A stretch of 33,972 nt of DNA. Origin: Cryomorphaceae bacterium. GTDB lineage: Bacteria; Bacteroidota; Bacteroidia; Flavobacteriales_D; Crocinitomicaceae. The notes under the pieces were generated by a model, which saw only the letters and a list, made by a program, of their open reading frames with translations, ran no database searches and was not told the DNA's origin. A program made the position numbers and the translations under genes. Below, one piece after another: positions 3,622-25,903 of the stretch (within the stretch, counting starts at the first letter, position 1; the number at the start of each line of letters is the position of its first letter). The stretch covers positions 1 to 33,972 of the forward strand of contig JAIXXP010000080.1 of the NCBI GenBank assembly GCA_027490665.1, written 5' to 3'.

Positions 3622-4162
3622 TAGCAATTTTCCGGAAGAACACCCAAACTTTTTCACCGACGAACAAGATCCGCAAACCGTTTCAAAAAGACCAGTTTTC
3701 CTGCTTGTTTTGGTGATTTTATCAAGCATTAATATCGGCATAAGTACTCTTGGTGCGCTGAGTGGCATGCTTGGTTATAAACCCGATAAGGACATGATCA
3801 AGAAAGAAATGCTCGAATTTGCGAACATGCGCGAGCAACTCGAAAAAGGAAATGCGGAAGATTTCATTTATATCATTGATCAGATGGAAGGTGTTGCGCT
3901 CAATATGTTTAAGCATTTTCAGCTATACAACAGTTTTCAGTTCTTGTTTTTAGTGCTCGGCCTTGCGGGAGTTATTTTGATGTACAGAGCCAAGAAGTTG
4001 GGCTTTCATTTTTATATTTTGTACACCCTAGGTTTGGTTGTGTTACCTTACTTTTTCAATCCGATTACGGGTATTCCAACAATTTTGACCATTGTTGGAA
4101 TTATCTACGGAGGAATTTGGGTATTCATGTACAGCCGCAACCTTCATTGGCTCAAAGACTAA
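3614..4162 (+). CDS. Small multi-pass membrane protein of unknown function
   Basis: I chose the ATG at 3614, giving 182 residues; it overlaps the end of hutH by 8 bases. A longer reading from 3584 uses TTG and runs deeper into hutH. The protein has an acidic soluble N-terminus (about residues 1-26), then four likely membrane spans near 28-50, 105-124, 130-148 and 153-173. A charged, probably helical loop at about 55-100 lies between spans 1 and 2. I do not recognise a named family; many Bacteroidota encode similar short membrane proteins. The overlap with hutH suggests the two are translated from one mRNA. Its stop codon overlaps the stop of the convergent glcD-like gene. Confidence 0.8.
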   Translation: MTDSNFPEEHPNFFTDEQDPQTVSKRPVFLLVLVILSSINIGISTLGALSGMLGYKPDKDMIKKEMLEFANMREQLEKGNAEDFIYIIDQMEGVALNMFKHFQLYNSFQFLFLVLGLAGVILMYRAKKLGFHFYILYTLGLVVLPYFFNPITGIPTILTIVGIIYGGIWVFMYSRNLHWLKD

Positions 4163-5553
4163 AAGATTTTTCCGGGGTTCAGAATTCCATTCGGATCGAA
4201 AACTTTTTTAATACCGCGCATGAGTTCCAGGCCAGTTTGGCTAAAAGCGAGGTCCATGTATGGTTTTTGAACGAGCCCAATGCCGTGTTCACCTGAAATA
4301 GTACCGCCCATTTTGATCACCTCTGTGAAGAGCTCACGTATAGCAACCGTTAGTTCTTCGTTCCAAAAAGTATCGCTGAGGTTTCCTTTGATGATATTCA
4401 CATGTAAATTACCGTCGCCGGCATGGCCGTAGCAAACCGACTCAAACCCGTATTTATGGCCAATGGCCTTCACGGTTGCCAATAATTGTGGTAGCTGATA
4501 CCTTGGTACCACGGTATCTTCTTCTTTGTAAACCGATTGTACTTTAACGGCTTCGCCTACTTTTCTGCGCAAGCTCCAAAGGGTGTTTTTTTGGGCTTCA
4601 GACTCAGCGAATAAGATTTCATCGGTTTGGTATTGTTCCAAAACTGCTAAAATCCCTTCGCATTCTTTGAAGAGTTGCTCGGGGTCAAAGCCGTCTACCT
4701 CAATGAGTAGATGTGCGGCGTGGTTGTCCTTGACTTCAATACTGTAATCTTCAGAAAAAGCCTGCGACCATTTGAGGGCATTGTGTTCCATGAATTCAAG
4801 CCCACTTGGTGTAATGCCCGCATTAAATATAGCAGATACCGCTTCGCAAGCTTGTTGCGCATCGTAGAAAGGTACAAGCATCAGGAGTGTATGGGTCGGG
4901 TGAGGAATGAGTTTGAGTACAATTTTGGTGACAAAAGCAAGCGTACCTTCAGAGCCCACTACCAATTGCGTCAGGTTGTAGCCAGTGGCGTTTTTAAGTA
5001 CGTTGGCGCCGGTCCACATTATGGTGCCGTCGGGCAACACAACCTCTAAATTAAGGACGTAATCTTTGGTGACCCCATATTTAACGGCTTTTGGGCCGCC
5101 AGAATTTTCGGCAATATTTCCACCAATAAAACAAGACCCCTTGCTCGCAGGGTCAGGTGGGTAAAACAAGCCTTTTTCTTTTACTGCATTTTGCAAGGCT
5201 TCTGTGATGACGGCAGGTTCTGTAATGACTTGCGCATTTTTTTCATCAATTTCGATGATGCGGTTGAGTTTTTCGGAGCTCAGCAAAACACCCCCATGAA
5301 TGGGCAAGCAGCCGCCACTCAGGCCCGTTCTTGCGCCTGCAGGCGTTACCGGGATATTGTTTGAATTACAATAAGCCAGAATTTCTGAAACTTCTTGGGT
5401 GTTTTGAGGTAGTAAAACTACCCTTGGCGTAAAGTGTAGGTCTTCGGTGTGGTCGTGGTTGTAGGCCTCGCGGGTGTCGAGGTCAGACTTACAGCGGTCT
5501 TGGAGTAAGGCCGTAAAGAAATCGAGGTCTTGTTGTTCTATGGTGTGGTACAT
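4159..5553 (-). CDS. FAD-linked 2-hydroxyacid dehydrogenase, GlcD / D-lactate dehydrogenase family
   Basis: The 464-residue protein is a PCMH-type FAD flavoenzyme with a C-terminal FAD-oxidase domain. The N-terminal half holds the FAD-binding segment PAGARTGLSGG (71-81) and the GGNIAENSGGPKAVKYG block (144-160). The C-terminal half has GHAGDGNLHVN (376-386), SGEHGIG (420-426) and the closing LNPGK. Relatives oxidise glycolate, D-lactate or other D-2-hydroxyacids to 2-oxoacids. No GlcE, GlcF or iron-sulfur partner is adjacent, so a single-subunit D-lactate dehydrogenase-like enzyme is more likely than a glycolate oxidase complex. The substrate cannot be settled from sequence. Its start overlaps the stop of the upstream methyltransferase in a TAATG, so the two are translationally coupled. 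Confidence 0.87.
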   Translation of the reverse strand: MYHTIEQQDLDFFTALLQDRCKSDLDTREAYNHDHTEDLHFTPRVVLLPQNTQEVSEILAYCNSNNIPVTPAGARTGLSGGCLPIHGGVLLSSEKLNRIIEIDEKNAQVITEPAVITEALQNAVKEKGLFYPPDPASKGSCFIGGNIAENSGGPKAVKYGVTKDYVLNLEVVLPDGTIMWTGANVLKNATGYNLTQLVVGSEGTLAFVTKIVLKLIPHPTHTLLMLVPFYDAQQACEAVSAIFNAGITPSGLEFMEHNALKWSQAFSEDYSIEVKDNHAAHLLIEVDGFDPEQLFKECEGILAVLEQYQTDEILFAESEAQKNTLWSLRRKVGEAVKVQSVYKEEDTVVPRYQLPQLLATVKAIGHKYGFESVCYGHAGDGNLHVNIIKGNLSDTFWNEELTVAIRELFTEVIKMGGTISGEHGIGLVQKPYMDLAFSQTGLELMRGIKKVFDPNGILNPGKIF

Positions 5554-6407
5554 TAGGCTTTCTTTTTTTGAGCGCCAACAAAAAAGATATCGCGCGTATT
5601 GATAGGAATGGCAGCGGCTTTAGGTATTTTGTTATACATCCATTGATGAAACCTACTTGGTTTTTTGTTGAGGATAAACAATGCAAAGTAAATGAGCCCC
5701 AGTGAACGGTAAACAGGCGGATACTTAAAGAATACGGGCTCGAAGCCGTGCTTTTCGAGAAGGGCCGTCATGGATTTTTTGGTGAAGTAATGCAAGTGTG
5801 TGGGAGGGTGGATCATGCGCCACTTTTTGCCTTGTAAGCGAGGTAAAAGCGCACCAAAGTCTCCGGTGGTGAGGTAGAGCATGGCGCCTGGCTTGCATTC
5901 TTTTTGTGCTTTTGCAATAAAGGCGCCCGGATCTGATAAATGTTCGATGACATCCCACATGAAAACGGCATCGTAGGTCATGGAATTGGCTACATCAAGG
6001 TAGTTTTCGGCTGAAAAATGAGGTCCAAAATGTTGATTCGCGTATTGGATGGCATCCTGAGAAATATCGTAACCCTGGTAGTTTACACCTTTGAATGTTT
6101 GGGAGATAGTTTGCTGAAAAAAACCATACGCACAACCAATTTCGAGAATGTCTTTTGGTGCAGGCGCATTTTTTGCAATTTGTTTGGCGCGCTTGCCAAA
6201 ATTCATTTGTAGTATTTCTTTATCGGCTAAGTAATCAGCGTATTCCTCACCCTTGAAATAGTTTTCGGCGTAAAGTTGCTGTAAATAGGCGTGGTCTAGT
6301 TGCAGATTGGCCCAGCCGTGCCCACAATTTTGACACTTCAAAAGGGTGTTGTCAAAAATGGGTTTGGTGTCAGAAAAATGACAGATAGGACATTGCATAT
6401 TTTCCAT
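5553..6407 (-). CDS. Class I SAM-dependent methyltransferase with N-terminal zinc ribbon
   Basis: I place the start at the ATG at 6407 (284 residues). Upstream in-frame ATGs at 6419 and 6494 would add a non-conserved tail, and the 6494 one runs into the thiolase gene. An ATG at 6398 is also possible. The N-terminus has two Cys pairs (Cys6/Cys9 and Cys25/Cys28, CPIC and CQNCGHGW) typical of a zinc ribbon. The SAM-binding motif I is LEIGCAYG at 88-95, followed by the FMWDVIEHLSDP block of the Methyltransf_23 type. Such proteins often modify sugars, lipids or polyketide-like products, but the substrate is unknown. It is coupled to the glcD-like gene through a TAATG overlap. Confidence 0.82.
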   Translation of the reverse strand: MENMQCPICHFSDTKPIFDNTLLKCQNCGHGWANLQLDHAYLQQLYAENYFKGEEYADYLADKEILQMNFGKRAKQIAKNAPAPKDILEIGCAYGFFQQTISQTFKGVNYQGYDISQDAIQYANQHFGPHFSAENYLDVANSMTYDAVFMWDVIEHLSDPGAFIAKAQKECKPGAMLYLTTGDFGALLPRLQGKKWRMIHPPTHLHYFTKKSMTALLEKHGFEPVFFKYPPVYRSLGLIYFALFILNKKPSRFHQWMYNKIPKAAAIPINTRDIFFVGAQKKKA

Positions 6408-6438
6408 GAATGCGAACATAACTAAAATTGGTGAATTC

Positions 6439-6468
6439 TTGCCGACGGCACATTTTATTTTATCTTTG
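6439..6468 (+). promoter_or_regulatory. Predicted promoter for the thiolase-surface protein operon
   Basis: TTG at 6439-6441 and TATCTTTG at 6461-6468 are separated by 19 bases. They match the Bacteroidota -33 (TTG) and -7 (TAnnTTTG) elements and spacing. The ATG of the thiolase follows 17 bases after the -7 element. The match is by eye; the start site is unmapped. Confidence 0.6.
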
Positions 6469-6485
6469 AATAGAAAATCGAAACA

Positions 6486-7694
6486 ATGTCTCAAGAAGTA
6501 TATTTAATTGACGGAATCCGCAGTGCTATTGGAAATTTCGGCGGAAGTTTAGCCACCCTACGCGCCGACGACTTAGCTGCAAAAGTGTTGGCAGGTTTGC
6601 TCGAGCGTCATCCCAACCTCGATTCAACCAGCATTGAAGATGTATTACTTGGCTGTGCCAATCAGGCAGGTGAAGACAACCGCAATGTAGCGCGCATGGC
6701 TTCACTCTTAGCAGGCTATCCAATAGAGGTGCCTGGCGAAACCGTCAATCGCCTTTGTGCTTCGGGTTTGGCAGCTGCCATCAACGCCACACGCGCACTG
6801 CGCTCAGGCGACGGCAATGTTTATGTGGCCGGCGGCGTCGAGCACATGACACGCGGCCCTTGGGTCATTTCAAAAACATCTGCTGCATTTGGCCGCGATG
6901 CCCAAATGTTCGACTCCAGCTTTGGCTGGCGTTTTATCAATCCGCAAATGGAAGCGCTGTACGGCGTAGACAGCATGGGCATGACCGCCGAAAATTTAGC
7001 AGCACACTACAATATTTCTCGCGCAGATCAAGACGCTTTTGCATGTTGGAGCCAAGAGAAAACCGCCGCCGCACAGGTTGCAGGCTTTTATACTGAAGAA
7101 ATTTTACCTATTTCCATTCCTCAGAAAAGAGGGGAGGCGTTGGTGTTCGATAAAGATGAGTTTGCAAGAGCCAACACTACCTTAGAAACGCTTTCCAATT
7201 TGCGTCCGGCCTTTAAAAAAGACGGCAGCGTTACAGCTGGCAACGCCTCGGGGCTCAACGATGGCGCTGCTGCGTTGTTGTTGGCCAACGAGGAAGGGGT
7301 GCGCGCTCATCAGCTCCAACCAATGGCTAAAATTATTTCAGCAGCAGTGGCCGGGGTTGAGCCACGTATCATGGGCATTGGCCCGGTTCCGGCAAGCCAA
7401 AAAGCATTGGAACGCGCAGGCCTCACTTTAGATCAAATGGACCTCATCGAGATCAACGAAGCGTTTGCGGCGCAAGTTTTGGCTTGTACGCGCGCCTTGG
7501 GTCTGCAAGACCGCGATGCGCGCATCAATCCGAACGGCGGTGCCATTTCCCTTGGGCACCCGCTCGGCATGTCTGGAGCACGCTTGCTTTTGACCGCAGC
7601 AAGACAACTCAAACGCAGCAACAAACGTTTTGCACTCGTTACTATGTGTATTGGTGTAGGGCAGGGTTACGCTGCAATCATCGAAAATGTTTAA
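6486..7694 (+). CDS. Acetyl-CoA acyltransferase (thiolase), PcaF/PaaJ-like
   Basis: This is a 402-residue biosynthetic/degradative type thiolase. It carries the nucleophile Cys91 (NRLCASG), the INEAFAAQ block at 323-330, the catalytic His358 in GHPLGMSG, and the second cysteine Cys388 in CIGVGQG. The segment CANQAGEDNRNVARMA (57-72) and the GWRFINPQME and YGVDSMGMTAEN blocks resemble 3-oxoadipyl-CoA thiolases (PcaF/PaaJ) more than acetoacetyl-CoA thiolases. No other paa, pca or beta-oxidation gene is nearby, so the substrate stays open. It has its own predicted promoter. Its end overlaps the next gene, a surface lipoprotein, by 8 bases, which is an unusual partner for a thiolase. Confidence 0.92.
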   Translation: MSQEVYLIDGIRSAIGNFGGSLATLRADDLAAKVLAGLLERHPNLDSTSIEDVLLGCANQAGEDNRNVARMASLLAGYPIEVPGETVNRLCASGLAAAINATRALRSGDGNVYVAGGVEHMTRGPWVISKTSAAFGRDAQMFDSSFGWRFINPQMEALYGVDSMGMTAENLAAHYNISRADQDAFACWSQEKTAAAQVAGFYTEEILPISIPQKRGEALVFDKDEFARANTTLETLSNLRPAFKKDGSVTAGNASGLNDGAAALLLANEEGVRAHQLQPMAKIISAAVAGVEPRIMGIGPVPASQKALERAGLTLDQMDLIEINEAFAAQVLACTRALGLQDRDARINPNGGAISLGHPLGMSGARLLLTAARQLKRSNKRFALVTMCIGVGQGYAAIIENV

Positions 7695-9276
7695 AATGCG
7701 GTTATTTGTTTACTTCGGTATCGTAGCTATAGTTTTCTCTTCGTGTAAGAAAAAAGCAACGCGTTGGCAGTCAGATTGGGTATTGCCTATTCTGACCGAC
7801 ACCCTTTCTTTAGCTCATCTATACAACGACTCCACGCTCAGTATCAGTGGTGCTCAAATCAATATCGACCTGAGTCGTACTTTGCTCGATATCGGACTTT
7901 CCGATATAGTCAAGATCCCAGACACCACTATTTCTCAGCAATACCAGTCTAATTTTACGGTTAGCAATGTGTCGCCAGGTTTTACTTTTGTGAATAGCGT
8001 CAAAACCCATGCACTCGACCTCGGCGATATTCTACTCAAGAAGGTACGCGTGCAAAGTGGTCAGATAGAACTCAAGGTCTATAATCCGCTCAATACGGCA
8101 GTTCTTTATCAAATTGAACTTCCTGGTGTCTCGCAAAATGGCCAAGTTTTTGTTCAAAACTATACGGTTGCAGCCGGAACCGTCCAAAATCCATCAATCG
8201 CTACAGAAACCATTAACTTAAGCGGCTACGAAATAGACCTCTCCGGACAACAAGGCCTAGAGTTCAATAAAATACAATCCAAACTCACCCTCAAAACCGA
8301 CCCAAATGGTCAGACGGTTTCCATCTTCAACAATCAGGTCTTTAAATACGAGGCCACGTTTGAAAACCTGCGCTTCGATTACGCAAAAGGTTATTTTGGC
8401 TCTACGCTCCTTGCCGACCAACAACAATTCACGCTTCCTTATCTAGACAAAATCACAGGCGGATCACTTTCCTTGCCAGACCTGAGCTTAGATGTCAAAA
8501 TTGAAAATGGTTTTAAAATGGCCTTGCGCGCTCAAATTGAACAGATGAACGCCACCAATACCCAAGGTCAGTCTATTTCTTTGAACGCACCGAGTATTGG
8601 CCCCAGTATGTTCTTGGCACCCGCCGTTGGTTCTTGGAACAACCTACAGCCAAGTTCACTGTTACTCCATTTTGACGCGAACAATAGCAATATCAAAAAT
8701 TATATAGAAAACCTCGGAGCTTACCAAAATATATCCTACCAATTGCAACCCAACCCTTGGGGCAACACCTCGGCTGGGCACGACGAAGCATTTGCAAACA
8801 GCCGACTCCGCTTAAAAGTAAGTGCACAAATGCCAATGGCACTCAATGCCGATGCGCTCACGCTACAAGATACTTTTGCCCTCGACCTCTCGCAAGATCT
8901 TAACAAAACGCACGTTACCGGAGCAACGCTAATTCTAGACGCAACCAATGCCTTTCCTGTGGCTTGCGATATCGTTTTGTATTTCATGAAAGATGGTCAA
9001 ATTATGCACACGGTTGTTGCTGATGCGCAATTGGCCTCGGCAGCTTTAGGGCAAATTGATCCTCAAGATGGTTTGCTTAAAAAGAAAAGTAAAATTAAAA
9101 TTGTGCTGCCGCCCGAGTTGGTAGCCGACCTCCAAGTCCTCAATCAAGTGGCAGTTGGTGCAGCATTTGCCACCACTGACCCAACTACAGGCTTGGCAGT
9201 CCAGCAAGCTATTCAAGCGAATGCCTTTTTGGCTTTGCAAGTTCAAATGCAATTGCAAACTCAAATCAGACCCTAA
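7687..9276 (+). CDS. Hypothetical lipoprotein, probably envelope-anchored
   Basis: The 529-residue product begins with a lipoprotein signal (hydrophobic stretch to FSSC, lipid-modified Cys20 followed by KKK). An alternative ATG three codons later (7696) is equally plausible. The rest looks beta-rich, with many Ser/Thr/Asn and short hydrophobic strands, and contains no enzyme motif that I recognise. The basic residues after the cysteine do not resemble the acidic lipoprotein export signal described for some Bacteroidota surface lipoproteins, so it may face the periplasm. It overlaps the thiolase by 8 bases and its stop overlaps the start of the next gene (TAATG), so it is in the same operon. 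Confidence 0.82.
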   Translation: MFKMRLFVYFGIVAIVFSSCKKKATRWQSDWVLPILTDTLSLAHLYNDSTLSISGAQINIDLSRTLLDIGLSDIVKIPDTTISQQYQSNFTVSNVSPGFTFVNSVKTHALDLGDILLKKVRVQSGQIELKVYNPLNTAVLYQIELPGVSQNGQVFVQNYTVAAGTVQNPSIATETINLSGYEIDLSGQQGLEFNKIQSKLTLKTDPNGQTVSIFNNQVFKYEATFENLRFDYAKGYFGSTLLADQQQFTLPYLDKITGGSLSLPDLSLDVKIENGFKMALRAQIEQMNATNTQGQSISLNAPSIGPSMFLAPAVGSWNNLQPSSLLLHFDANNSNIKNYIENLGAYQNISYQLQPNPWGNTSAGHDEAFANSRLRLKVSAQMPMALNADALTLQDTFALDLSQDLNKTHVTGATLILDATNAFPVACDIVLYFMKDGQIMHTVVADAQLASAALGQIDPQDGLLKKKSKIKIVLPPELVADLQVLNQVAVGAAFATTDPTTGLAVQQAIQANAFLALQVQMQLQTQIRP

Positions 9277-10445
9277 TGCGCTGTTTATTCATCCTCTTTT
9301 TTGTAGCCACCCAATTTGCACAGGCCCAGCAAACCATCGTGCTCGACACATATGGTCATTACAATAGCACTGGTGTGCGCAGGCAGGTTGCCGATGCATT
9401 TTTTTATGGAGGCTTAATAGATTCTAGTCAAATCAATCAATCGCTCACCAAACTCAGTGCGCGCAATGCTTTTGGTTTGCAAATGGGGTTCAATGCGCAG
9501 TGGCAAACACCGTGGGCGCTTTCTAAAGACGCTAAGAATTGGAGTTCTAGCTACCGCTGGGTTCTGGGTGCTGGCATTCACCAATACGGCGGCATTCACT
9601 TCTCCAAAGATCTTTTCGGTTTGGTTTTTCAAGGTGGTTTACCTTATATGGGCGATTCCCTCGATATAAGTAACCTCAGGGTAGAGTCGACTACCTTTTC
9701 TAAGCTGGGATTTGGCTTGGTGAATAACAGTACCCAATCTTCGTTTCTTATTCATTTTGTGGCCGTTCATAATCATATCGCAGCTGCACTTCAGAAAGGA
9801 ACATGGTTGCAATACCCTGCAAGTGCTCAAATAGACCTCACGCTTCAAGGCGAAGCCCAATTTAGTGGGGCATCTCCGGCCGCCTATGGTGTGGCTTTTG
9901 ACCTCGACTACCGTTTTGGATCTGCGGAAAACGATGAAGCACCTCAACAATTTCAATTTCAGGTTCAAAACTTTGGTATAGCGCGCAGTACCCAAACGAC
10001 TCAATACAATCTATCAGGTGGCTTTCAATATGCCGGTTATTCTTTTGCACAATGGCAGCAAGCTACTGTAAATGAGCTTTCTGATGCTTTTTTAGATTCT
10101 TTAGGTTATGAAAAAAGCGCAGTAAGCAGTTGGATTTTATTACCCGCACAGTTTCAATTGGCGAAGGTCATCAATTGGGAAAGTCCGCAGCGTTTAGAAG
10201 CTTACTACGGCGCTCAGTTTATGCTGCGCCAAACCTACACACCACTAATTTACGCTGGTGCACACTACAAGGTTAAAAAAGCATGGCAAACGGGTCTCGG
10301 AATGGCCTACGGTGGCTTTGGCGGTTTGCGTGTACAAGCCTATTCTGCTTTTCATTTCAAGCGTTCACAGCTTTTATTGCGCTCTGACAACATTGCGCTG
10401 CAAAATGGCGCTTCACTTTATCTTCAGTTCCGATGCGATTTTTAA
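9276..10445 (+). CDS. Predicted outer-membrane beta-barrel protein of unknown function
   Basis: The 389-residue product has a Sec signal peptide (about residues 1-18, ending in QAQ). It is followed by alternating aromatic/hydrophobic strands and Gly-rich turns, and it ends in a strand with a terminal Phe (LYLQFRCDF), as outer-membrane barrels do. The content recalls Bacteroidota barrel families such as DUF5723 or the PorP/SprF-like proteins, but I cannot assign it firmly. It starts in a TAATG with the preceding lipoprotein gene and overlaps the following T9SS-exported gene by 13 bases. The three envelope proteins are therefore probably made together and may form one surface assembly (inference). 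Confidence 0.78.
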   Translation: MRCLFILFFVATQFAQAQQTIVLDTYGHYNSTGVRRQVADAFFYGGLIDSSQINQSLTKLSARNAFGLQMGFNAQWQTPWALSKDAKNWSSSYRWVLGAGIHQYGGIHFSKDLFGLVFQGGLPYMGDSLDISNLRVESTTFSKLGFGLVNNSTQSSFLIHFVAVHNHIAAALQKGTWLQYPASAQIDLTLQGEAQFSGASPAAYGVAFDLDYRFGSAENDEAPQQFQFQVQNFGIARSTQTTQYNLSGGFQYAGYSFAQWQQATVNELSDAFLDSLGYEKSAVSSWILLPAQFQLAKVINWESPQRLEAYYGAQFMLRQTYTPLIYAGAHYKVKKAWQTGLGMAYGGFGGLRVQAYSAFHFKRSQLLLRSDNIALQNGASLYLQFRCDF

Positions 10446-11905
10446 GTATCCTCAGCTTCTTGTTAGTTGTACAATTAGTCAGTGCGCAATCGCGCTTTTA
10501 TAAATTGTATTCAGGTTCAGGTTTTGACAAAGGCGAAGATGTGTTGGCCTTGCCTGATTCTACCTTTCTTGTTGCCGGAAGCAGTGGCAGCTGGGAGGAG
10601 AACGCACAAGGTTTTCTCATGAAAATCGATTCAGTAGGGGCTTATGTTTGGAGTCAGTCCTATGGCGCGCAAGAAACCGAAGAAATTAAACGTGTTTTTC
10701 ACCGGCCAGGTATGGGTTATTATCTTGCGGGCATGTCGAATTCCTGGAGTAATGGCAACTATGACCCCATGCTTATCTTCACCGATCTAGCGGGCAATCA
10801 ACAATGGATCAAAACGTATCAAAACCCAGCTTGGGAGCGCATCCACGATGGCGTCCAGACCAAAGACACCGGCTTTGTGCTCGTTGGTGAAAGGCAAGTA
10901 ACTTTGGGTGCAGAGGCCGACATATTGCTCATGCGCCTTAACAAAAACGGCGACACACTTTGGACAAAAACCCTCGGAACAGCTGGTGCAGACCGCGCCA
11001 ATAGCGTCATACGTGTTTCGGATAGTTTATATGTTGTTGGTGGTGAGTGGTACGTTGCTGACTCCAGTGCAACAAAGGGGTTTACCATGGAAATCAACGA
11101 TCAAGGTGTTGTTCAATGGTTCGACACTTTGGGTCATCTGAGTGGCGATTTTGCGGTATCAGATCTTACCCAAACGCCATTTGGAATTCAATTTGCGGGT
11201 CATCATACTTTTTCACCAGAAAACCATAATGTTTTTTCAGGTTCTATTTCGCTTAATGGACTTCTGATCAATCAAAATGCGCCTCAAGATGGTACTTTTA
11301 TTTCTGATGACAAATGCCAACAAATTGCCTATCTAGCACAACAAGATCGTTCTATATATGGTATTCAGGTTCAGAATGACAGTACGTTTTCTGAGTACTT
11401 TGATCTTAATTTTGGTTATGTTGATGCCTTATTCGGTTACTGGTTAGGATTACCCTACACAATGGTCATTAATCAAGGTTATGACTATATCGGAAACATC
11501 CGCCCAACTTTAGACGGTGGTTTTATTGCGACAGGCATGAATTCAGTAATCGTTGACGGTCAAAATCAGCTCAATGGTGGTAGTAACGTATTTGTTTTGA
11601 AAGTGAATGGCAATGGTTCGGCCTATGTACAGACCGATACCGTTTTTACGACCCAGCAATTGGTGGGTTTGAGTCCATTATTTGAAGGTAGTGAAGTATT
11701 GATGTTTCCAAACCCAGTTGAATCTGTGTTGCATTTGAATTGGGAAGGTTCGGAACCGAAACAAATCGAAATCTATGGAATGATGGGCAATTTACTTCAC
11801 AGAGAATCCATGACGCCAGCCCAAACAATTGACCTCAGCAATTGGCCGCAAGGTGTTTATTACGTTTGTATCAACGGGAGTGCTTATCCGGTAGTCAAGC
11901 ACTAA
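10433..11905 (+). CDS. Secreted protein with T9SS type A C-terminal sorting domain
   Basis: The 490-residue product has a signal peptide (about 1-18, cleavage after VSA). Its body contains repeated blocks of the type [ILF]-x-[KR]-[ILV]-D/N-x-x-G-x-x-x-W (for example MKIDSVGAYVW and MRLNKNGDTLW), which suggests a bladed, propeller-like fold. From residue 424 there is a typical type A sorting domain: MFPNPVESVLHL, then IEIYGMMGNLL, then LSNWPQGVYYV and a basic end. Such domains direct passage through the type IX secretion system and attachment at the cell surface. It overlaps the barrel gene upstream by 13 bases. The stop codon overlaps the stop of convergent putA. Function beyond export is unknown. 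Confidence 0.9.
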   Translation: MRFLSILSFLLVVQLVSAQSRFYKLYSGSGFDKGEDVLALPDSTFLVAGSSGSWEENAQGFLMKIDSVGAYVWSQSYGAQETEEIKRVFHRPGMGYYLAGMSNSWSNGNYDPMLIFTDLAGNQQWIKTYQNPAWERIHDGVQTKDTGFVLVGERQVTLGAEADILLMRLNKNGDTLWTKTLGTAGADRANSVIRVSDSLYVVGGEWYVADSSATKGFTMEINDQGVVQWFDTLGHLSGDFAVSDLTQTPFGIQFAGHHTFSPENHNVFSGSISLNGLLINQNAPQDGTFISDDKCQQIAYLAQQDRSIYGIQVQNDSTFSEYFDLNFGYVDALFGYWLGLPYTMVINQGYDYIGNIRPTLDGGFIATGMNSVIVDGQNQLNGGSNVFVLKVNGNGSAYVQTDTVFTTQQLVGLSPLFEGSEVLMFPNPVESVLHLNWEGSEPKQIEIYGMMGNLLHRESMTPAQTIDLSNWPQGVYYVCINGSAYPVVKH

Positions 11906-13095
11906 GCTTTTCGTCTTGCTTTTTCTTTAATGATGAGCCCTAGCTCACGGCTCGTTTGGCCCGCCACAGATGTGTTTTCATCTGCGCGTCTGAGCAAATA
12001 AGGCAATACTTCGTTGACGGGTCCGAAAGGTACGTATTTAGCTACTTGGTAACCTGCATCTGATAAATTGTAGGAAATGTGGTCAGACATCCCTAAAAGC
12101 TGCGCAAAGTAAAACTTCGGGTTTTTAGGATCCACTTTATCTTGGTGCAGTAAGCTAGCTAAATACATCGAGCTGTTTTCGTTGTGGGTTCCCGCGCAAA
12201 TCGAGAAAACATCCTTGTGCGCTACTAAGAAGTCAAGCGCTGCATCGTAATCTTTATCTGTGCTTGCTTTGTTGGGCTGAATAGGCGAGGGGTAAGCGAG
12301 TTCTTGCGCTCTTGCACGCTCTTTCTCCATGTAAGCACCGCGTACCAATTTGACGCCATACTGAACCCCGGCTTCTTTTGCGCGTTCCAATTCGCTGTGT
12401 AAATAAGCCAAGCGATCATGGCGATACATCTGAACTGTGTTGTACACAATACAAGCGTCTTTGTTGTACTTGCGCATCATGTCGAAAGTCCATTGGTCTA
12501 TAGCGGTTTGGATCCAGGTTTCTTCGGCGTCAATAAACAAGCGCGTTTGGTGTTTGGCGGCTGCAGCGCAGATGCGGTCTATGCGGTCAATAATGGCTTG
12601 TATTTGTTCGTTTTCTTGGGTGGTGAATGACCTGAAAGCAATTTGTTTTCTGGTGGCCCTGATTTGTTCGGAAACCAATTCTAGAAGGTCGTGTTGTCCG
12701 ATACCGGTGACTTTAAAAACAGCAAAAGGAATGCGTTTGTCTGTGGCTGATTTTTCAATTGTTTGAATAATGATTTGCGTCGTTTGTTCGAAATCATTTT
12801 CTTCGGTTTTACCTTCTACGGAGTAATCTAGGATGGTACCAATGCCAAATGCATGCAAACTGCTTATGGCGGTGTCACACTCATCTATCGTTTCGCCGCC
12901 ACAAAATTGCTTGAAAATAGTGTTTTTAATGAGGCCTTTGATCGGAAGACGCATGCGTAGGGCGAGCGGAGTAAGGACCTTTCCAATTTTCACGATACTT
13001 GGTGCACCAATGATCTTGAATAACAAATAAGCGCGTTGGAGGTCTTGCTTGTTTTTGGAGCGAAAGGCAATTTCGGTGTTGTCGAAAGAAATCAT
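11902..13095 (-). CDS. putA: Proline dehydrogenase (monofunctional PutA-type)
   Basis: The 397-residue protein is a single-domain proline dehydrogenase. It oxidises L-proline to pyrroline-5-carboxylate with FAD and passes electrons to quinones. Recognisable blocks are KLVRGAYMEKER (249-260), the YFAQLLGMSDH block, and the substrate-binding signature YVPFGPVNEVLPYLLRRADEN-like end at 354-374, with the paired arginines 369-370. The P5C dehydrogenase that completes glutamate formation is not in the window. It is transcribed divergently from aroB with only 35 bases between start codons. A promoter element lies 4 bases before its ATG. Confidence 0.93.
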   Translation of the reverse strand: MISFDNTEIAFRSKNKQDLQRAYLLFKIIGAPSIVKIGKVLTPLALRMRLPIKGLIKNTIFKQFCGGETIDECDTAISSLHAFGIGTILDYSVEGKTEENDFEQTTQIIIQTIEKSATDKRIPFAVFKVTGIGQHDLLELVSEQIRATRKQIAFRSFTTQENEQIQAIIDRIDRICAAAAKHQTRLFIDAEETWIQTAIDQWTFDMMRKYNKDACIVYNTVQMYRHDRLAYLHSELERAKEAGVQYGVKLVRGAYMEKERARAQELAYPSPIQPNKASTDKDYDAALDFLVAHKDVFSICAGTHNENSSMYLASLLHQDKVDPKNPKFYFAQLLGMSDHISYNLSDAGYQVAKYVPFGPVNEVLPYLLRRADENTSVAGQTSRELGLIIKEKARRKA

Positions 13096-13099
13096 GCAC

Positions 13100-13107
13100 C
13101 AAAATTA
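13100..13107 (-). promoter_or_regulatory. -7 promoter element of putA, 4 bases before ATG
   Basis: On the minus strand TAATTTTG fits TAnnTTTG exactly. Only the bases gtgc lie between it and the putA ATG (13095-13093), so transcription should begin at or next to the start codon. No clear TTG at -33 was found. Confidence 0.5.
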
Positions 13108-13118
13108 AGCTCTTTTCG

Positions 13119-13126
13119 TAAATTTG
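13119..13126 (+). promoter_or_regulatory. -7 promoter element of aroB, 4 bases before ATG
   Basis: TAAATTTG fits TAnnTTTG. Four bases (aacc) separate it from the aroB ATG at 13131, predicting a leaderless or almost leaderless mRNA. No good -33 TTG is visible at the usual distance. Confidence 0.5.
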
Positions 13127-13130
13127 AACC

Positions 13131-14192
13131 ATGCATACGGCTTCTTTTTCAGAACAGCTGAGTCCAATTGAATGGGGCCCACTACTCAACTCTACTTTTT
13201 CTTCAGTTCTTGCACCGTTTGCAACTAGAAAAATTGCCATTCTCGTCGATGAAAACACCCACGACCACTGTCTTGAATTTTTAATCACAGGCTTTGACGC
13301 TTTGGCTGAAGCAGAAGTCATTATGCTGCCGGCAGGCGAAGAAAACAAAGTACTTGAAGTTTGTTTTCAGGTCTGGGAAACCCTTACAGAAGCTGGTTTC
13401 GGTCGCCATGACCTCCTGATCAATTTAGGCGGCGGCATGGTCACAGACCTCGGCGGCTTTGTAGCCTCGGTTTACAAACGTGGCCTGGCCTTCATCAATG
13501 TACCAACAAGTTTGCTTGGTATGATAGATGCCGCTGTTGGTGGCAAAACAGGAATCGATTTTGCCGGCTTCAAAAATCAAATAGGAACATTCGCAGCAGC
13601 GCAGGTTACCTACATCGATACCGGTTTCTTGCATACCCTGCCAAGCCAAGAATGGACCAATGGTTTTGCTGAGCTGCTCAAACATGCCCTAATTTCAGAT
13701 GTTCAGTTATGGCAAGATCTTTCTTACATTCAAGATGTTCAAAAAGAACTCCAATTAGAAACCATCCAGCAAGGGGTTCAAATTAAAGCGGAAATCGTTG
13801 CGCAAGATCTTACTGAAAAAGGATTGCGCAAAATTCTGAATTTTGGACACACCATTGGCCATGCGCTCGAATCCTATTATTTAAACACCGCAACACCGCT
13901 TTCACATGGGCACGCAGTGGCGCTTGGCCTTTTATTGGAAAGTAAATTATCTGTTGAGCAAGCTACCTTATCGAAACAAGAATTTCTATCGATAGAAACT
14001 CGGATCAAAAGTATTTGTGCGCTTCAAATCCCAAGCGATGCAGAAGGTCTTTGGGCACTCATGCAACAAGACAAAAAGAATGACAACGGCGAGGTTCGCA
14101 TTTGTTTATTGCCTCGAATCGGTTCTTGTCTTTTCGACCAAAAGTTAGCTTTCGAGGTTTTCGAGAAAGTGATTTCAGGCTACTGTTCATAA
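13131..14192 (+). CDS. aroB: 3-dehydroquinate synthase
   Basis: The 353-residue protein is AroB. It converts DAHP to 3-dehydroquinate in the shikimate pathway using NAD and a divalent metal. NAD binding is shown by GGGMVTDLGGF (100-110) and the PTSLLGMIDAAVGGKTGID block (125-143). The metal ligands fall at Glu181 (NGFAELLKHALI), in GHTIGHALE (239-247) and in LSHGHAVALG (258-266). Length is usual for the family. It stands alone on the plus strand between divergent putA and the convergent S46 peptidase gene. It is the only shikimate enzyme here, although pabB downstream uses the pathway's product chorismate. Confidence 0.96.
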   Translation: MHTASFSEQLSPIEWGPLLNSTFSSVLAPFATRKIAILVDENTHDHCLEFLITGFDALAEAEVIMLPAGEENKVLEVCFQVWETLTEAGFGRHDLLINLGGGMVTDLGGFVASVYKRGLAFINVPTSLLGMIDAAVGGKTGIDFAGFKNQIGTFAAAQVTYIDTGFLHTLPSQEWTNGFAELLKHALISDVQLWQDLSYIQDVQKELQLETIQQGVQIKAEIVAQDLTEKGLRKILNFGHTIGHALESYYLNTATPLSHGHAVALGLLLESKLSVEQATLSKQEFLSIETRIKSICALQIPSDAEGLWALMQQDKKNDNGEVRICLLPRIGSCLFDQKLAFEVFEKVISGYCS

Positions 14193-14205
14193 TAGTTTAT
14201 TGCAT

Positions 14206-14229
14206 AAAAAAAAGGCCTCCGAAGAGGCC
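14206..14229 (-). terminator. Strong rho-independent terminator with UUCG loop
   Basis: Read on the minus strand, this is GGCCTC, loop TTCG, GAGGCC, followed by eight T. The stem is six perfect GC-rich pairs closed as C(UUCG)G, an exceptionally stable tetraloop. It lies 41 bases past the stop of the S46 peptidase and should end the minus-strand operon. On the plus strand the same hairpin is followed only by CTTTCC, so it is a weaker terminator for aroB. Confidence 0.9.
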
Positions 14230-14270
14230 CTTTCCTTACAAGCTAGTTGGAAGCACCAACTTGCAATGCT

Positions 14271-16412
14271 TTATTCAACGATGGTCATTTCGTCTACGAT
14301 ATGTTTTGCACCGGCATATTTGTCGATGATGAACAATACGTAACGGATGTCTACGTTGATGGTTTTTTGCAATTTGTTGTCAAAGATGACGTCGCCGGCC
14401 ATGGCTTCGATGTTGCCATCAAAGGCCAAACCAATGAGTTCTCCTTTGCCGTTCAATACTGGCGAACCTGAATTACCACCGGTAATGTCGTTGTTGGTGA
14501 GGAAGTTGACTGGCATGTAGCCTGCTTTGTCAGCATAGCGACCAAAGTCTTTTTTCTCGTTGAGTTCGATCAAGCGTTTAGGCAAATCGAATTCTTCGTC
14601 GTTTGGCTTGTATTTGTTAATAGTACCTTGAAGCGTAGTGTAGTTGTTGATTTTTGCGTCGTTGCGTTTGTCTGCAGGAAGCGCACTTACTTTTCCGTAA
14701 GTCAAACGCAAAGTGCTGTTTGCATCTGGATACAAAATTGTACTCATGCCAGATTCTCTTAAACCTGCAACAAGTAGGCGGTAAGCACGGTTGTAGTCGT
14801 CGGTGAGTTTGATGAGTTCGTCGGAGCGCTTCATGAGCTGCGTCAACATATCTGAAGATAATTTAAATAAAGGGTCGTTGCTCAATTGGCCTTCACTAGG
14901 AGCTTCTAAGAATGCAAGCAATTCATTTCTGGAAGTTAAAATAGAAGTAGTGAACATTGCTTTGATTTCGCTATTGACATCCTTGTCGCTATACATTGCT
15001 TGCATGCCATCAAATAATTGATAATTTGCTTTTTGGCCGTAGAGGTTCAAGCCGGCAATTAAAATATCGAGCTCTGCTGGAATAGATGTATTTTTGAAAA
15101 ATTCATTAATTGCCATTTTTAAATCACCTTTCATGGACTCGCGTTTCGTTGCATCTGCTTTAGCGTAGGCCATTAGTTGTGCGCCTAAGCCTCGTGTAAT
15201 GCCTGCATATTCAGAGTTGCGAACTAAAATAGAGAGGTAGTTATCGTGTCTTGATTTATCGTTGGTAGCTGCGTAAAAAGCATTGATTGTGCTGACGACA
15301 TTGCCATATTTAGCTTTGTTTTCAGGTTTATTTGCCCAAGTATTGAACTTAGCTTCGTTTTGTGCTTTAGAAGCGGCAGTCTGGAACTTAGTGAGGGCGT
15401 CGATCATGCCTTGGCGGTTTTTCCAGTAGTTGGCGGTACGTGCATATTTCGATGCGTAGTTCAAACGAACGTTGGCGTCTTTATCCATGTGAACTTTCAT
15501 GGCATCCATAGCTGTTTTGGAAGCTTCAACCCAAGCAGGGTAGGCGTATTTTACGTTTTGATCGATGCCACCTGCTGGCAACCAGCGGTTGGTTCGACCT
15601 GGGTAGCCCATAATCATGGCGAAGTCACCTTCTTTGACACCATTCAAATTGATAGGCAAGTGGTGTTTTGGGTGTAATGGAACGTTGCTTGTGCTGAAGT
15701 CGGCTGGGTTGCCGTTTGCATCTGCGTAAACGCGAAACATGCTGAAGTCGCCGGTGTGGCGCGGCCACTCCCAGTTGTCGGTGTCGCCGCCGAATTTACC
15801 GATGCTGTTTGGAGGAGTTCCGACCAAACGTACGTCTTTGAAATCTTGGTAAACAAAGAAGTAAAATTCGTTGCCTTGAAAGAAAGAACGGACAGAAACG
15901 ACATATTTGCCACCTTCGCTGTTTTCTTTTTCGATAAGTGCGATTTCTTCTTTGATGATTTTGTCGCGCTCTGTTTCGGACATGTTATCAGAAACTTTAG
16001 CCATGATGCGCTTGGTGCAGTCGTCCATGCGGACAAAGAAGCGTACATATAAAGATTTTGGCTTGAGTTCTTGGCTGCGGTCTGCGGCCCAAAAACCGTT
16101 GGTGAGGTAGTCGTGCTCAGGAGTAGAGAGTTCGGCAATTGCGTCGTAGCCACAGTGGTGGTTGGTGAGTAGCAAACCATCTTTTGAGATGAGCTCTGCT
16201 GTACAGCCGCCATTGAATTGCACAACTGCATCTTTCAAAGAAGAATTGTTGATGCTGTAAATTTCTTCTGCAGTAAGCTGAAGACCCATTTTTTGCATGT
16301 CGCGGTGGTTCAGGCGATCGATAAACATCAAAAACCACATGCCTTCATCGGCACGGACAAAAATCCCTACAAATAAGAACAGGGCAAGTGTAATACGTTT
16401 GAATTGTTTCAT
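14271..16412 (-). CDS. S46 family dipeptidyl-peptidase, DPP7-like
   Basis: I use the ATG at 16412 because it gives a normal signal peptide (MKQFKR, hydrophobic core, cleavage after VRA). The longer reading from 16454 adds 14 residues and covers the promoter. The 713-residue product is a chymotrypsin-fold S46 exopeptidase that releases dipeptides in the periplasm. The triad is His86 (TNHHCGYDAI), Asp222 (HTGDFSMFRVYAD) and Ser648 (GGNSGSPV). The residue 18 positions after the serine, which sets P1 preference, is Gly (FDGN). This fits DPP7/DAP BII with hydrophobic P1 rather than the Arg of DPP11. It is last in the minus-strand unit and is followed by the UUCG terminator. Confidence 0.93.
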   Translation of the reverse strand: MKQFKRITLALFLFVGIFVRADEGMWFLMFIDRLNHRDMQKMGLQLTAEEIYSINNSSLKDAVVQFNGGCTAELISKDGLLLTNHHCGYDAIAELSTPEHDYLTNGFWAADRSQELKPKSLYVRFFVRMDDCTKRIMAKVSDNMSETERDKIIKEEIALIEKENSEGGKYVVSVRSFFQGNEFYFFVYQDFKDVRLVGTPPNSIGKFGGDTDNWEWPRHTGDFSMFRVYADANGNPADFSTSNVPLHPKHHLPINLNGVKEGDFAMIMGYPGRTNRWLPAGGIDQNVKYAYPAWVEASKTAMDAMKVHMDKDANVRLNYASKYARTANYWKNRQGMIDALTKFQTAASKAQNEAKFNTWANKPENKAKYGNVVSTINAFYAATNDKSRHDNYLSILVRNSEYAGITRGLGAQLMAYAKADATKRESMKGDLKMAINEFFKNTSIPAELDILIAGLNLYGQKANYQLFDGMQAMYSDKDVNSEIKAMFTTSILTSRNELLAFLEAPSEGQLSNDPLFKLSSDMLTQLMKRSDELIKLTDDYNRAYRLLVAGLRESGMSTILYPDANSTLRLTYGKVSALPADKRNDAKINNYTTLQGTINKYKPNDEEFDLPKRLIELNEKKDFGRYADKAGYMPVNFLTNNDITGGNSGSPVLNGKGELIGLAFDGNIEAMAGDVIFDNKLQKTINVDIRYVLFIIDKYAGAKHIVDEMTIVE

Positions 16413-16430
16413 GATTAGAATATTGGTTGG

Positions 16431-16461
16431 CGAAGATACAATGAATGCCGTCAATTTGCAA
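16431..16461 (-). promoter_or_regulatory. Predicted promoter of the S46 peptidase gene
   Basis: On the minus strand TTG (16461-16459), 20 bases, then TATCTTCG (16438-16431), one mismatch from TAnnTTTG. The ATG at 16412 follows after 18 bases, the same distance as for the thiolase and thrS. It lies just before the end of the Crp/Fnr gene, so the peptidase may be expressed separately from the upstream genes. Confidence 0.45.
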
Positions 16462-16473
16462 CGTTAATTCGTG

Positions 16474-17070
16474 CTACTTCGAAGAGAGTAGCTTTTTTTT
16501 CATGCGGCTCAGGCTTTCTGGCAAGATGCCGAGGTAAGATGCGATTTGATGTTGGGCTACAATTTGCTCAATTCCGGGGTGGCGTTGTAGCAATTCTTGA
16601 TATCGTTCTTCGGCATGTGCAGAGACAGTCATCAGGAAGCGTTTTTGCAAAACAGCTAAAGTGCGTTGGGCCATAATTCTGAATAAACGCTCCAAAGCCG
16701 GGATTTGCTCAAAAAGATATTCGAGGTCGTCTTTGCCAATTTCTAAAATGTAACTTTCTTCTAAAGCTTGCACATTGAGCGTTGCTGCGTCGTCGAAATG
16801 AAAGGCAGATAAATCGCCTACCCACCAATCGGCAAACGCAAAGTAAAGTACGTGTTCATTGCCTTTCGTATCGGTATAATACACACGGAGTGTTCCGTCG
16901 GCCACAAAGCCTTGGTGAAAATTCTTTGTGCCTTCTTTGAGAAAGAAGTCCTTCTTGTTGACTTTTCGAAGGTGGTAATATTGCTTCATGAGCTCGAAGT
17001 CCGCAGCTGAAAGCGGCACCCGTTGGCTCATGTAATTGAATAGTTTTTGATATGCTAATTGCGCGTCCAT
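16474..17070 (-). CDS. Crp/Fnr family transcriptional regulator
   Basis: I chose the ATG at 17070 (198 residues), which leaves 5 bases after the rsmF-like stop. A reading from 17103 would overlap that gene by 28 bases. The N-terminal two thirds form a cyclic-nucleotide-binding-type beta roll (blocks FLKEGTKNFHQGFVADGTLRV-like and LEIGKDDLEYLFEQIPALERL-like). The C-terminal end carries a winged-helix segment (QHQIASYLGILPESLSRMKKKL). It has no Fnr-type cysteine cluster at the N-terminus, and the cAMP phosphate-binding Arg-Ser signature is not evident, so the ligand is unknown. Similar proteins are common in Bacteroidota. It is co-directional with rRNA and tRNA modification genes upstream and a peptidase downstream. 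Confidence 0.88.
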   Translation of the reverse strand: MDAQLAYQKLFNYMSQRVPLSAADFELMKQYYHLRKVNKKDFFLKEGTKNFHQGFVADGTLRVYYTDTKGNEHVLYFAFADWWVGDLSAFHFDDAATLNVQALEESYILEIGKDDLEYLFEQIPALERLFRIMAQRTLAVLQKRFLMTVSAHAEERYQELLQRHPGIEQIVAQHQIASYLGILPESLSRMKKKLLSSK

Positions 17071-17075
17071 TTGTT

Positions 17076-18395
17076 TTATTTTGGTAGGTGCCTGATGCGC
17101 CATTCGGTGGGGTGCATATTGTTGAAGCGTTGCCCAATTTGCTTGACCATTGCAATGCGTTGATCTTCAAACTCAATGAAGTAAAAACCTGCCGGAGCAG
17201 TCCATTGGTGGCTTTCCCCATGTAGAATTTGCAAGGCTTCTGTCAGTTCAACCTTTTTAATAGGGAGCTCCCATTTCAGGAACAGACTGTAAACCATATC
17301 GTAGCCTGGTGTCCAGTTTTTTTTGTTGGCTGTAGCAACGTGGGTTCCCGTTTTCAGAAACTTTAAATTTTTAAGCTGAGGATAAAAGTCGAGCGCAAAG
17401 GTGGTTGTTGCAAAAATTTTGTCTTCTTCTTGCCAAAATTGTAGGTCACTAGGGAAGGAGAGGTGTTGTGCTATTTCGCTTGGCAGTCCGGTCTGAAGCT
17501 GAGCTTTGGCTGGTTTCGATTTGGGAACATTAGCTTCTGTTTTTTGCAATGCTGCAATATAAAACCCTTCGCTCTTGATCTGATTGGGTAAAAAGTAAAA
17601 GCCGCTGTTGTTTCGGTCTGGCTTCATGCCCTCAAATGCAGGGAGTTCAACCCTGGAAGCGCTGCCATCTTGTAAAAAAGAAAGGAGTTGTTGCTCATTT
17701 TCCTCGGGGTTGAAAGTGCAAGTAGAGTAAATAAGGTAGCCACCTTCTTTGAGCAATGGCCAAACCTCTTCTAATATGTCTGTTTGACGCTCAGCACAGG
17801 TACTGGCATTGCCTAAATTCCATTCGGCTCTGGCCTGATGGTCTTTGCGAAACATACCTTCTCCTGAACAGGGCGCGTCAACAACTAAAACATCGAGCTG
17901 CCCAGCTAAAGCGCTGAGCTCTGAAGGTTTGTGGTTGCACACAAAAACATTGGAATAACCCCATTTGGTGAGGTTTTCACTGAGGATATACGCTCTAGAA
18001 CGATTGATTTCATTGGCGATCAGTACGCCGCGGTGCTGTAAAAAACCTGCAATGAGTGTGCTTTTTCCACCGGGTGCAGCACTTAAGTCCAGTACAACAG
18101 GGTTTTGAGGTAAATCTAGGGTTTGTAATACCTGTTCTAAATACATAGAGCCAGCTTCTTGCGGATAGTAGGCGCCTGCATGAAAAAGCGGATCGTAGGT
18201 AAAACTTGGGCGTTTGTCGAGGTAGACGCCATTTGAATTCCAAGGCACAGGTGTGGTGTTTGTCAAATTATTTTTGCGCATTGGGTGCAGGCGTACTGAG
18301 GTAGGGGCCGGCAATTCTAGTGCTTCTAGCAAGGAAGTCGGGATGAAGTCGTCTGCTTGAATGCGTGCAATGAAGTCTAGTGGTAAGGAGTCCAT
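17076..18395 (-). CDS. RsmF/NOL1-NOP2-type RNA cytosine C5-methyltransferase
   Basis: I use the ATG at 18395 (439 residues); the longer reading overlaps tilS. The protein is a SAM-dependent m5C methyltransferase. SAM binding is shown by LDLSAAPGGKSTLIA (102-116). The two catalytic cysteines are Cys176 in DAPCSGEGMFRK and Cys226 in YSTCTFNPEENE. The extended C-terminal region (about 290-439) resembles the RsmF/YebU family, which modifies 16S rRNA (C1407 in E. coli), but the exact site cannot be known from sequence. Eight bases separate it from tilS upstream and five from the Crp/Fnr gene downstream. Confidence 0.9.
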   Translation of the reverse strand: MDSLPLDFIARIQADDFIPTSLLEALELPAPTSVRLHPMRKNNLTNTTPVPWNSNGVYLDKRPSFTYDPLFHAGAYYPQEAGSMYLEQVLQTLDLPQNPVVLDLSAAPGGKSTLIAGFLQHRGVLIANEINRSRAYILSENLTKWGYSNVFVCNHKPSELSALAGQLDVLVVDAPCSGEGMFRKDHQARAEWNLGNASTCAERQTDILEEVWPLLKEGGYLIYSTCTFNPEENEQQLLSFLQDGSASRVELPAFEGMKPDRNNSGFYFLPNQIKSEGFYIAALQKTEANVPKSKPAKAQLQTGLPSEIAQHLSFPSDLQFWQEEDKIFATTTFALDFYPQLKNLKFLKTGTHVATANKKNWTPGYDMVYSLFLKWELPIKKVELTEALQILHGESHQWTAPAGFYFIEFEDQRIAMVKQIGQRFNNMHPTEWRIRHLPK

Positions 18396-18403
18396 TCTCA
18401 AAA

Positions 18404-25559: not shown

Positions 25560-25903
25560 TACTCAGGCAAAATATTCATTTTGTCGGCAAAGTGGTAGCA
25601 ATAGTCGCGGAGATCTTCTGAAATGAGGTGCTCGCCTGTTGCCTTCTCGAAGGTATCTGCCATGGTGAGCAGTGTTTGATGAAAAAACTGTTTCATTTCC
25701 TCGATGGTCATGTCTTTGGTCCAGAGATCGATTTTCATGGTGTTTTTTGACTTCGGATCCCATAGGGAAAGGAGGAAGGCTGCTGCTTCGGCGTTGTCTA
25801 TTTGGCCATCACTAGCCGACCAAAGCATACGCAAAGGTAGTTGGTTGGCATTGAGGCCAACTTGAATATTGATTTCGGAGGTTTTTACGATTTGGTCACT
25901 CAT
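25559..25903 (-). CDS. gldC: Gliding motility protein GldC
   Basis: This 114-residue protein has the size and sequence of GldC (TSEINIQVGLNANQLP near the start; a block ending SLWDPKSKNTMKIDLWTKDM; EDLRDYCYHFADKMN near the end). GldC is a small cytoplasmic or peripheral protein that is encoded next to gldB in Flavobacteriia and improves gliding efficiency in Flavobacterium johnsoniae. It overlaps gldB by 4 bases (ATGA) and DUF2797 by one (TAATG). No signal peptide is present. Confidence 0.9.
   Translation of the reverse strand: MSDQIVKTSEINIQVGLNANQLPLRMLWSASDGQIDNAEAAAFLLSLWDPKSKNTMKIDLWTKDMTIEEMKQFFHQTLLTMADTFEKATGEHLISEDLRDYCYHFADKMNILPE

Follow-up and report, generated by a model that had tools for sequence, protein, structure and literature searches.

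Does the block of four abutting genes at positions 6486 to 11905 (plus strand) of a Cryomorphaceae bacterium contig encode a surface assembly, and does the metabolic thiolase at its head belong to it? The stretch analyzed, hereafter the window, is the whole of positions 1 to 33,972 of contig JAIXXP010000080.1 (NCBI GenBank assembly GCA_027490665.1; Bacteroidota, class Bacteroidia, order Flavobacteriales_D, family Crocinitomicaceae), from a source genome of 2.79 Mb in 139 contigs that is 92% complete. We refer to the three envelope genes behind the thiolase as LIPO, BARREL, and T9, after a lipoprotein, an outer-membrane β-barrel, and a product with a sorting domain of the type IX secretion system (T9SS). 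LIPO-BARREL-T9 is a real, widely conserved, and apparently uncharacterized three-gene envelope module; it is a variant of barrel-lipoprotein-cargo assemblies and not a categorically new system. Our preferred reading, to which we give a probability of about 0.45, is that the trio encodes an assembly of the outer membrane, with BARREL serving a single T9SS product as its dedicated partner in the membrane. The features concerned are the following.

6439 to 6468, plus strand: site resembling a Bacteroidota promoter (-33 element TTG at 6439 to 6441, a 19-base spacer, and -7 TATCTTTG at 6461 to 6468)
6486 to 7694, plus strand: thiolase of the 3-oxoadipyl-CoA (PcaF/PaaJ) type, 402 amino acids (aa); first gene of a probable operon, outside the envelope module
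7687 to 9276, plus strand: LIPO, lipoprotein of 529 aa with Cys20, predicted all-β, no credible Pfam family; conserved start probably ATG 7696
9276 to 10445, plus strand: BARREL, predicted outer-membrane β-barrel of 389 aa with a FadL-type fold and kinship to DUF5723 at family level
10433 to 10445, plus strand: coding overlap of BARREL and T9, 13 bases
10433 to 11905, plus strand: T9, secreted propeller-like protein of 490 aa (DUF5122/SBBP type) with a type A T9SS sorting domain
11702 to 11884, plus strand: residues 424 to 484 of T9, its C-terminal sorting domain of type A (PF18962, E = 1e-9; TIGR04183, E = 1.1e-9)

Conservation was followed in 80 named loci from a genome scan, mostly titled Crocinitomicaceae or Flavobacteriales, for which counts use only the loci with room for the gene in question; in 20 loci of the genus, which together with the named loci make up a family set of 100; and in a class sample of 247 genomes from 135 genera, searched with LIPO and BARREL profiles. 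Of 60 related genomes, 46 gave a match to BARREL and 48 to LIPO, and the order LIPO-BARREL-T9 holds in all 20 genus loci. BARREL follows LIPO in 71/71 named loci, the nearest of which has a LIPO 94% identical to that of the window, and T9 follows BARREL in 62/64. In other families of the order, LIPO lies directly 5' of BARREL in 12/12 loci (L053, the thirteenth, starts inside the block), and T9 is downstream on the same strand in 11/13, with kdsA, the gene for 3-deoxy-D-manno-octulosonate (KDO)-8-phosphate synthase, intervening in two. Over the class, the LIPO profile matches 189/247 genomes (101/135 genera) and the BARREL profile matches 180/247, some weakly; where places were listed for both, LIPO is immediately 5' of BARREL on the same strand in 130/138 genomes, with a gap of ≤197 bases by match edges, and among the remaining eight, two have a LIPO match that reaches a contig end and one has its pair separated by 478 bases. 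The sequence-only reading had proposed that the three envelope genes form a unit, and the co-occurrence found here upholds it. In a phylum sample, which includes some class members, LIPO relatives were found in 75/247 genomes; those from outside the class are for the most part incomplete and low-scoring. Co-occurrence with the T9SS was discarded as a test because SprA is present in 240/247 class genomes.

For T9, 20 class loci were chosen by hand because the LIPO-BARREL pair was present in them. T9 follows the pair in 13 of these, six times directly and seven times after kdsA, and the 13 neighbors score E = 2e-67 to 5e-125 against a T9 profile built without those loci; three other genes in the 20 loci are matched by the profile at E = 5e-8 to 3e-15. 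When the window T9 alone served as query, the best match of the genome lay beside the trio in 9/13 genomes of other families.

The junctions within the trio are kept as well. The coordinates of the four open reading frames confirm the overlaps of 8, 1, and 13 bases given in the sequence-only reading. In the named loci, BARREL and T9 share exactly 13 bases at 54/68 junctions, and the LIPO/BARREL junction is -1 or -4 in 59/76. The 8-base overlap of thiolase and LIPO depends on the start codon: the Met kept among LIPO relatives is the second ATG (residue 4, base 7696), from which there would instead be a 1-base gap after the thiolase stop, and the thiolase-LIPO distance ranges from -59 to +260 among relatives in the named loci. 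A pattern scan, using letters that we take to be the Bacteroidota promoter consensus, found the promoter-like site 5' of the thiolase, in line with the proposal of one promoter ahead of the block; its TATCTTTG ends 17 bases before the thiolase ATG, and TAnnTTTG occurs at a like place 5' of the thiolase in 14 of the 15 relatives listed. Counting both strands, the window contains the pattern 12 times, whereas 100 mononucleotide shuffles gave 2.28 on average; within the four genes, the only other plus-strand match is inside T9 (10875/10899). We would expect the four genes to be cotranscribed.

The thiolase itself is PcaF-like, as had been proposed (NCBIfam TIGR02430, 616.5 bits against a cut-off of 597), and it stands upstream of LIPO in 68/70 named loci with room, being absent from the block head in L094 and L102 and, in the genus set, in L049. 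As a part of the module, at whose head the sequence-only reading had called it odd, it can be ruled out, because in each of the 13 genomes from other families of the order that carry BARREL the best thiolase match lies away from the trio, and because paaA, paaC, and paaD of its own genome are on contig C87. It looks like the paaJ of the genome, since the contig with these partners has no thiolase match; there is one PcaF-like thiolase in the genome, that of the window, and the sole other thiolase match (contig C1) is 40% identical to it. From gene content, then, the thiolase is best read as paaJ, fixed at the block head in one family, and looks like a local passenger of phenylacetate metabolism that shares the operon in this family only. 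As a separate observation, a PorP/SprF gene lies about 3 kb from paaA, paaC, and paaD (C87, positions 4000 to 20000; L181).

What, then, are the three envelope products? All carry signal peptides. T9 ends in the sorting domain that had been noticed in it, of type A and above both curated cut-offs (PF18962, 39.0 against 27 bits, residues 424 to 484; TIGR04183, 38.1 against 23 bits, residues 424 to 483). PF18962 is present in 28/28 T9 members and DUF5122 propeller repeats in 11/28 (E up to 0.1), and the type B model CHU_C is also matched weakly by two of the 28 (best E = 0.01). Gln19 is found in all 28.

AlphaFold2 models were made of single chains only. That of BARREL (57 sequences) has a mean predicted local distance difference test (pLDDT) score of 88.4 and a predicted TM-score (pTM) of 0.82 and is β-rich, with a pair of helices separating the first strand from the second, so the barrel suspected from the sequence is recovered with good confidence. 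VIA-align placed FadL first (1t16_A; Z = 15.8, root mean square deviation [rmsd] 5.5, 288 residues), with the monoaromatic channels TodX, CymD, and TbuX at Z = 14.1 to 15.0 (TodX, 15.0), barrel chains of the β-barrel assembly machinery (BAM) complexes of F. johnsoniae and B. thetaiotaomicron at 13.7 (9n2d_B) and 13.3 (9hiv_F), and T9SS translocon chains at 13.2 and 13.0; from the entry titles, we take the BAM chains to be BamG and the translocon chains to be PorV. Foldseek listed the autotransporter EstA first, followed by FadL-family and many other barrels, at low TM-scores of 0.18 to 0.42. BARREL is thus predicted to be an outer-membrane barrel of the FadL-type fold. The N-terminal hatch of FadL is missing from it, because the alignment starts at FadL residue 41, opposite model residue 17 (predicted mature start Gln18, first strand from residue 20); many BARREL relatives have more residues at the N terminus than the window member. 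The Gln after the signal peptide is present in 30/30 order-level rows (alignment A2) and in 47/57 rows of the named-locus alignment. The most conserved segment, residues 110 to 133 (0.58 against a mean of 0.44), is taken by the parity rule for barrels to be an extracellular loop.

By sequence, BARREL was harder to place. DUF5723 (PF18990), a family whose function Pfam gives as not known and for which a literature search returned no papers, is matched by 8/30 BARREL relatives (best E = 9.9e-17); the window BARREL has no Pfam family at E up to 1, DUF5723 and PF03349 included, so this link holds at the family level only. Identity with FadL by sequence was ruled out, as PF03349 (FadL/Toluene_X) has no match in the genome at E = 0.001, BARREL included, and identity with PorP/SprF was ruled out because BARREL has no TIGR03519 match at E = 1 although a true PorP in the same genome scores 161 bits (E = 3.3e-47). 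The 30 family members gave no NCBIfam match named PorV or PorQ at E = 0.1, in a search without a positive control, and the BARREL profile found no significant chain among PDB sequences.

In LIPO, Cys20 and Trp27 are invariant (29/29 rows of alignment A1), and conservation is also among the highest in the residues that follow the lipidated Cys. The 29 members have no credible Pfam family (best E = 0.002); against NCBIfam, the window protein gave nothing better than E = 0.063 and one long relative gave no match at E = 0.001. The claim that no family fits the middle two proteins of the block therefore stands for LIPO but not for BARREL, with its FadL-type fold and its relatives in DUF5723. The LIPO model (59 sequences; pLDDT 89.6, pTM 0.72) is nearly all β and matches BDI_1231 of Parabacteroides distasonis (4h3w) at Z = 13.4 over 281 of 313 residues with an rmsd of 8.0, the next entry being at 7.4. 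This protein is shorter than LIPO, 10% identical to it, and described only as a putative secreted protein; it is also the only PDB sequence reached by the LIPO profile at E = 1, weakly (E = 0.5) and in the C-terminal part, so that no chain is significant. Fold matches below it (Z ≤ 7.4; viral capsids, Cry toxins, PHM, and PNGase F) were set aside as common jelly-roll resemblance. BamH does not appear among the 50 fold matches listed for LIPO, to which we attach no weight. Separately, longer LIPO relatives of 675 to 721 aa lie beside BARREL in L171, L172, and L173; they have a longer, different N-terminal part and match profile positions from about 95 on, and that of L172 has no Pfam match.

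A dedicated surface assembly is favored because the trio has the same kinds of parts as PorQ-PorZ, SprF-SprB, and BamG-BamH-BamI, gathered in one block. PorZ has propeller domains. PorQ, a PorV-like barrel, is reported to hold PorZ through a retained, uncleaved C-terminal domain, and PorZ to supply anionic lipopolysaccharide (A-LPS) (PMC10202324). The likeness lies in a PorV-like barrel that retains a T9SS product; in the trio, however, there is a third gene, for a lipoprotein, and all stand in one gene block, and neither BARREL nor T9 has an NCBIfam match to PorQ or PorZ (again without a positive control). SprF-SprB resembles the trio in that the gene of a barrel is clustered with that of its own T9SS cargo; PorP/SprF barrels are described as serving clustered type B cargoes (PMC10202324), whereas the cargo of the trio is type A in every member and its barrel falls outside TIGR03519. 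The preferred reading is also supported by the fold of BARREL, because this is common to PorV and BamG, both reported to bind their partners through extracellular loops (PMC10202324, PMC10994853, PMC12578637). Among the named families, only the type A cargoes and PcaF have a clear member here; in every other case membership fails or is uncertain, although BARREL shares the FadL-type fold.

Under the preferred reading, T9 would cross the outer membrane through the T9SS by means of its type A C-terminal domain, BARREL would take it over instead of its being released, and T9 would then stay on the cell surface, its propeller-like domain exposed to a presumed ligand. LIPO, anchored by its lipid, would be a structural partner of the BARREL/T9 unit. 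A more specific form of this idea, which we offer tentatively, is that of a so far undescribed outer-membrane complex, distributed over much of the class, whose hatch-less barrel of the FadL fold receives one type A T9SS propeller protein as its private cargo and binds a new all-β lipoprotein family, linking T9SS export to lipopolysaccharide (LPS) or surface assembly. If true, this would add a third type of cognate barrel to those of PorQ-PorZ and SprF-SprB. To our knowledge, few cases tie a given barrel to a given cargo; barrel-lipoprotein complexes and T9SS cargoes define the Bacteroidota surface, and the trio lets one ask whether a type A cargo has a private barrel. It also brings into view a lipoprotein family that is spread over 101 of the 135 sampled class genera and is without a credible Pfam family. 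On the module, its parts, and its relatives, a literature search (mainly of open-access papers, without preprints) listed no paper whose title or opening abstract lines describe such a unit.

Linked evolution of the three products was measured by protein distances in 57 complete sets with the thiolase as control. The partial correlations of protein distances were 0.695 for LIPO-T9, 0.465 for LIPO-BARREL, and 0.412 for BARREL-T9, none of which was reached in any of 2000 permutations. The LIPO-T9 link lies mostly in the propeller (0.683, against 0.335 for the sorting domain), and BARREL is linked more to the C-terminal part of LIPO (0.538) than to its N-terminal half. Because there was one control gene and distances are saturated, we treat these correlations as supporting evidence only.

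Several observations weigh against the preferred reading. The two weakest links in the distance test are those of BARREL with the sorting domain (0.247) and with the N-terminal half of LIPO (0.240), which speaks neither for BARREL gripping the sorting domain nor for the LIPO N terminus docking as in BamH. T9 is missing beside the pair in 7/20 class loci and in L062 and lies nearby on the opposite strand in L057, so the LIPO-BARREL pair can do without it; and in four of the other-family genomes (G044, G050, G054, and G058), another cargo scores better when the window T9 is the query. The side of the membrane on which LIPO stands is also in question. Lipoprotein export signals after the Cys have been published as C-X-K-(D/E)2, Q-A-(D/E)2, and S-(D/E)n (PMC5080379), and the window LIPO (CKKKATRW) has none of those given there; matches occur in 4/59 rows of alignment A5 and 2/29 of A1, and at least two acidic residues at +2 to +6 in 9/29 rows of A1. 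LIPO may therefore face the periplasm, or it may use another export signal. Finally, the occurrence of kdsA next to BARREL outside the family argues for LPS and not for cargo retention.

This last observation leads to the alternative that the trio serves outer-membrane or LPS biogenesis or modification, either as an accessory cap like BamG-BamH-BamI or as an LPS handler, which we regard as rather unlikely. Outside the family, kdsA is the next assigned gene after BARREL in 10/33 loci (L157, L158, L160, L161, L164, L166, L169, L175, L058, and L059), at gaps of about 560 bases in L164 and about 200 in L166, and both copies tested (L157 and L058) are above the TIGR01362 cut-off; it is this linkage that makes a connection with LPS testable. 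A gene for a CptA-like phosphoethanolamine transferase comes right after T9 in L161 (8137 to 9828; below the NCBIfam cut-off) and L156 (11208 to 12905). Not one of the 100 loci of the family set, however, has kdsA, and TIGR01362 reaches no more than 119.7 bits in the genome carrying the window, below the cut-off of 314; genes for KdsA and for a PF03349 protein may be absent from this genome, divergent, or in gaps of the assembly.

The composition of the trio is that reported for BamG-BamH-BamI (PMC12578637), in which a FadL-type barrel carries a lipoprotein with a propeller lipoprotein beside it (PMC12578637; PMC12611786), and the Z scores of 13.7 and 13.3 to the chains taken as BamG agree with this likeness. 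The propeller of the trio, though, is exported by the T9SS, whereas that of BamI is a lipoprotein; BamG has a long N-terminal tail threading the barrel, which the window BARREL does not have (the alignment to 9n2d_B starts at its residue 70, opposite model residue 17), although some BARREL relatives have a longer N terminus. BamG and BamH are moreover reported to be universal in Bacteroidota (PMC12611786), whereas the BARREL and LIPO profiles, which can miss divergent members, stop at 180 and 189 of the 247 class genomes. That BARREL and LIPO are BamG and BamH is thus not supported but stays conceivable, in particular for BARREL as a divergent BamG, since no separate BamG was located in the genome by PF03349 at E = 0.001.

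We consider it clearly improbable that BARREL is a channel of the FadL/TodX kind for hydrophobic or aromatic compounds, with LIPO and T9 capturing the substrate and the thiolase joining uptake to phenylacetate catabolism. FadL and the monoaromatic channels are its best VIA-align matches, the block begins with the one PcaF-like thiolase that the genome has, paaA, paaC, and paaD are present elsewhere, and the thiolase is linked to LIPO in nearly all named loci. Against this, the hatch is missing, PF03349 finds nothing in the genome, the thiolase stands apart from the trio in each of the 13 genomes from other families of the order that carry BARREL, and its spacing to LIPO is not kept. That the trio would be merely cotranscribed envelope genes with separate functions and no common complex is very unlikely, for although T9 can be lost, order and strand are kept over much of the class, with near-invariant junctions and linked distances.

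Outside the block, T9 meets a proline dehydrogenase gene tail to tail (11902 to 13095, minus strand). At 20993 to 24303 (plus strand), the window holds a secreted-looking pair of 799 and 309 aa with a 19-base overlap and the look of a receptor with its lipoprotein, for which NCBIfam gave no match at 1e-8. Gliding-motility genes are found at 25559 to 26904 (minus strand), GldC above its cut-off and GldB at 174.9 bits, below its cut-off of 190.

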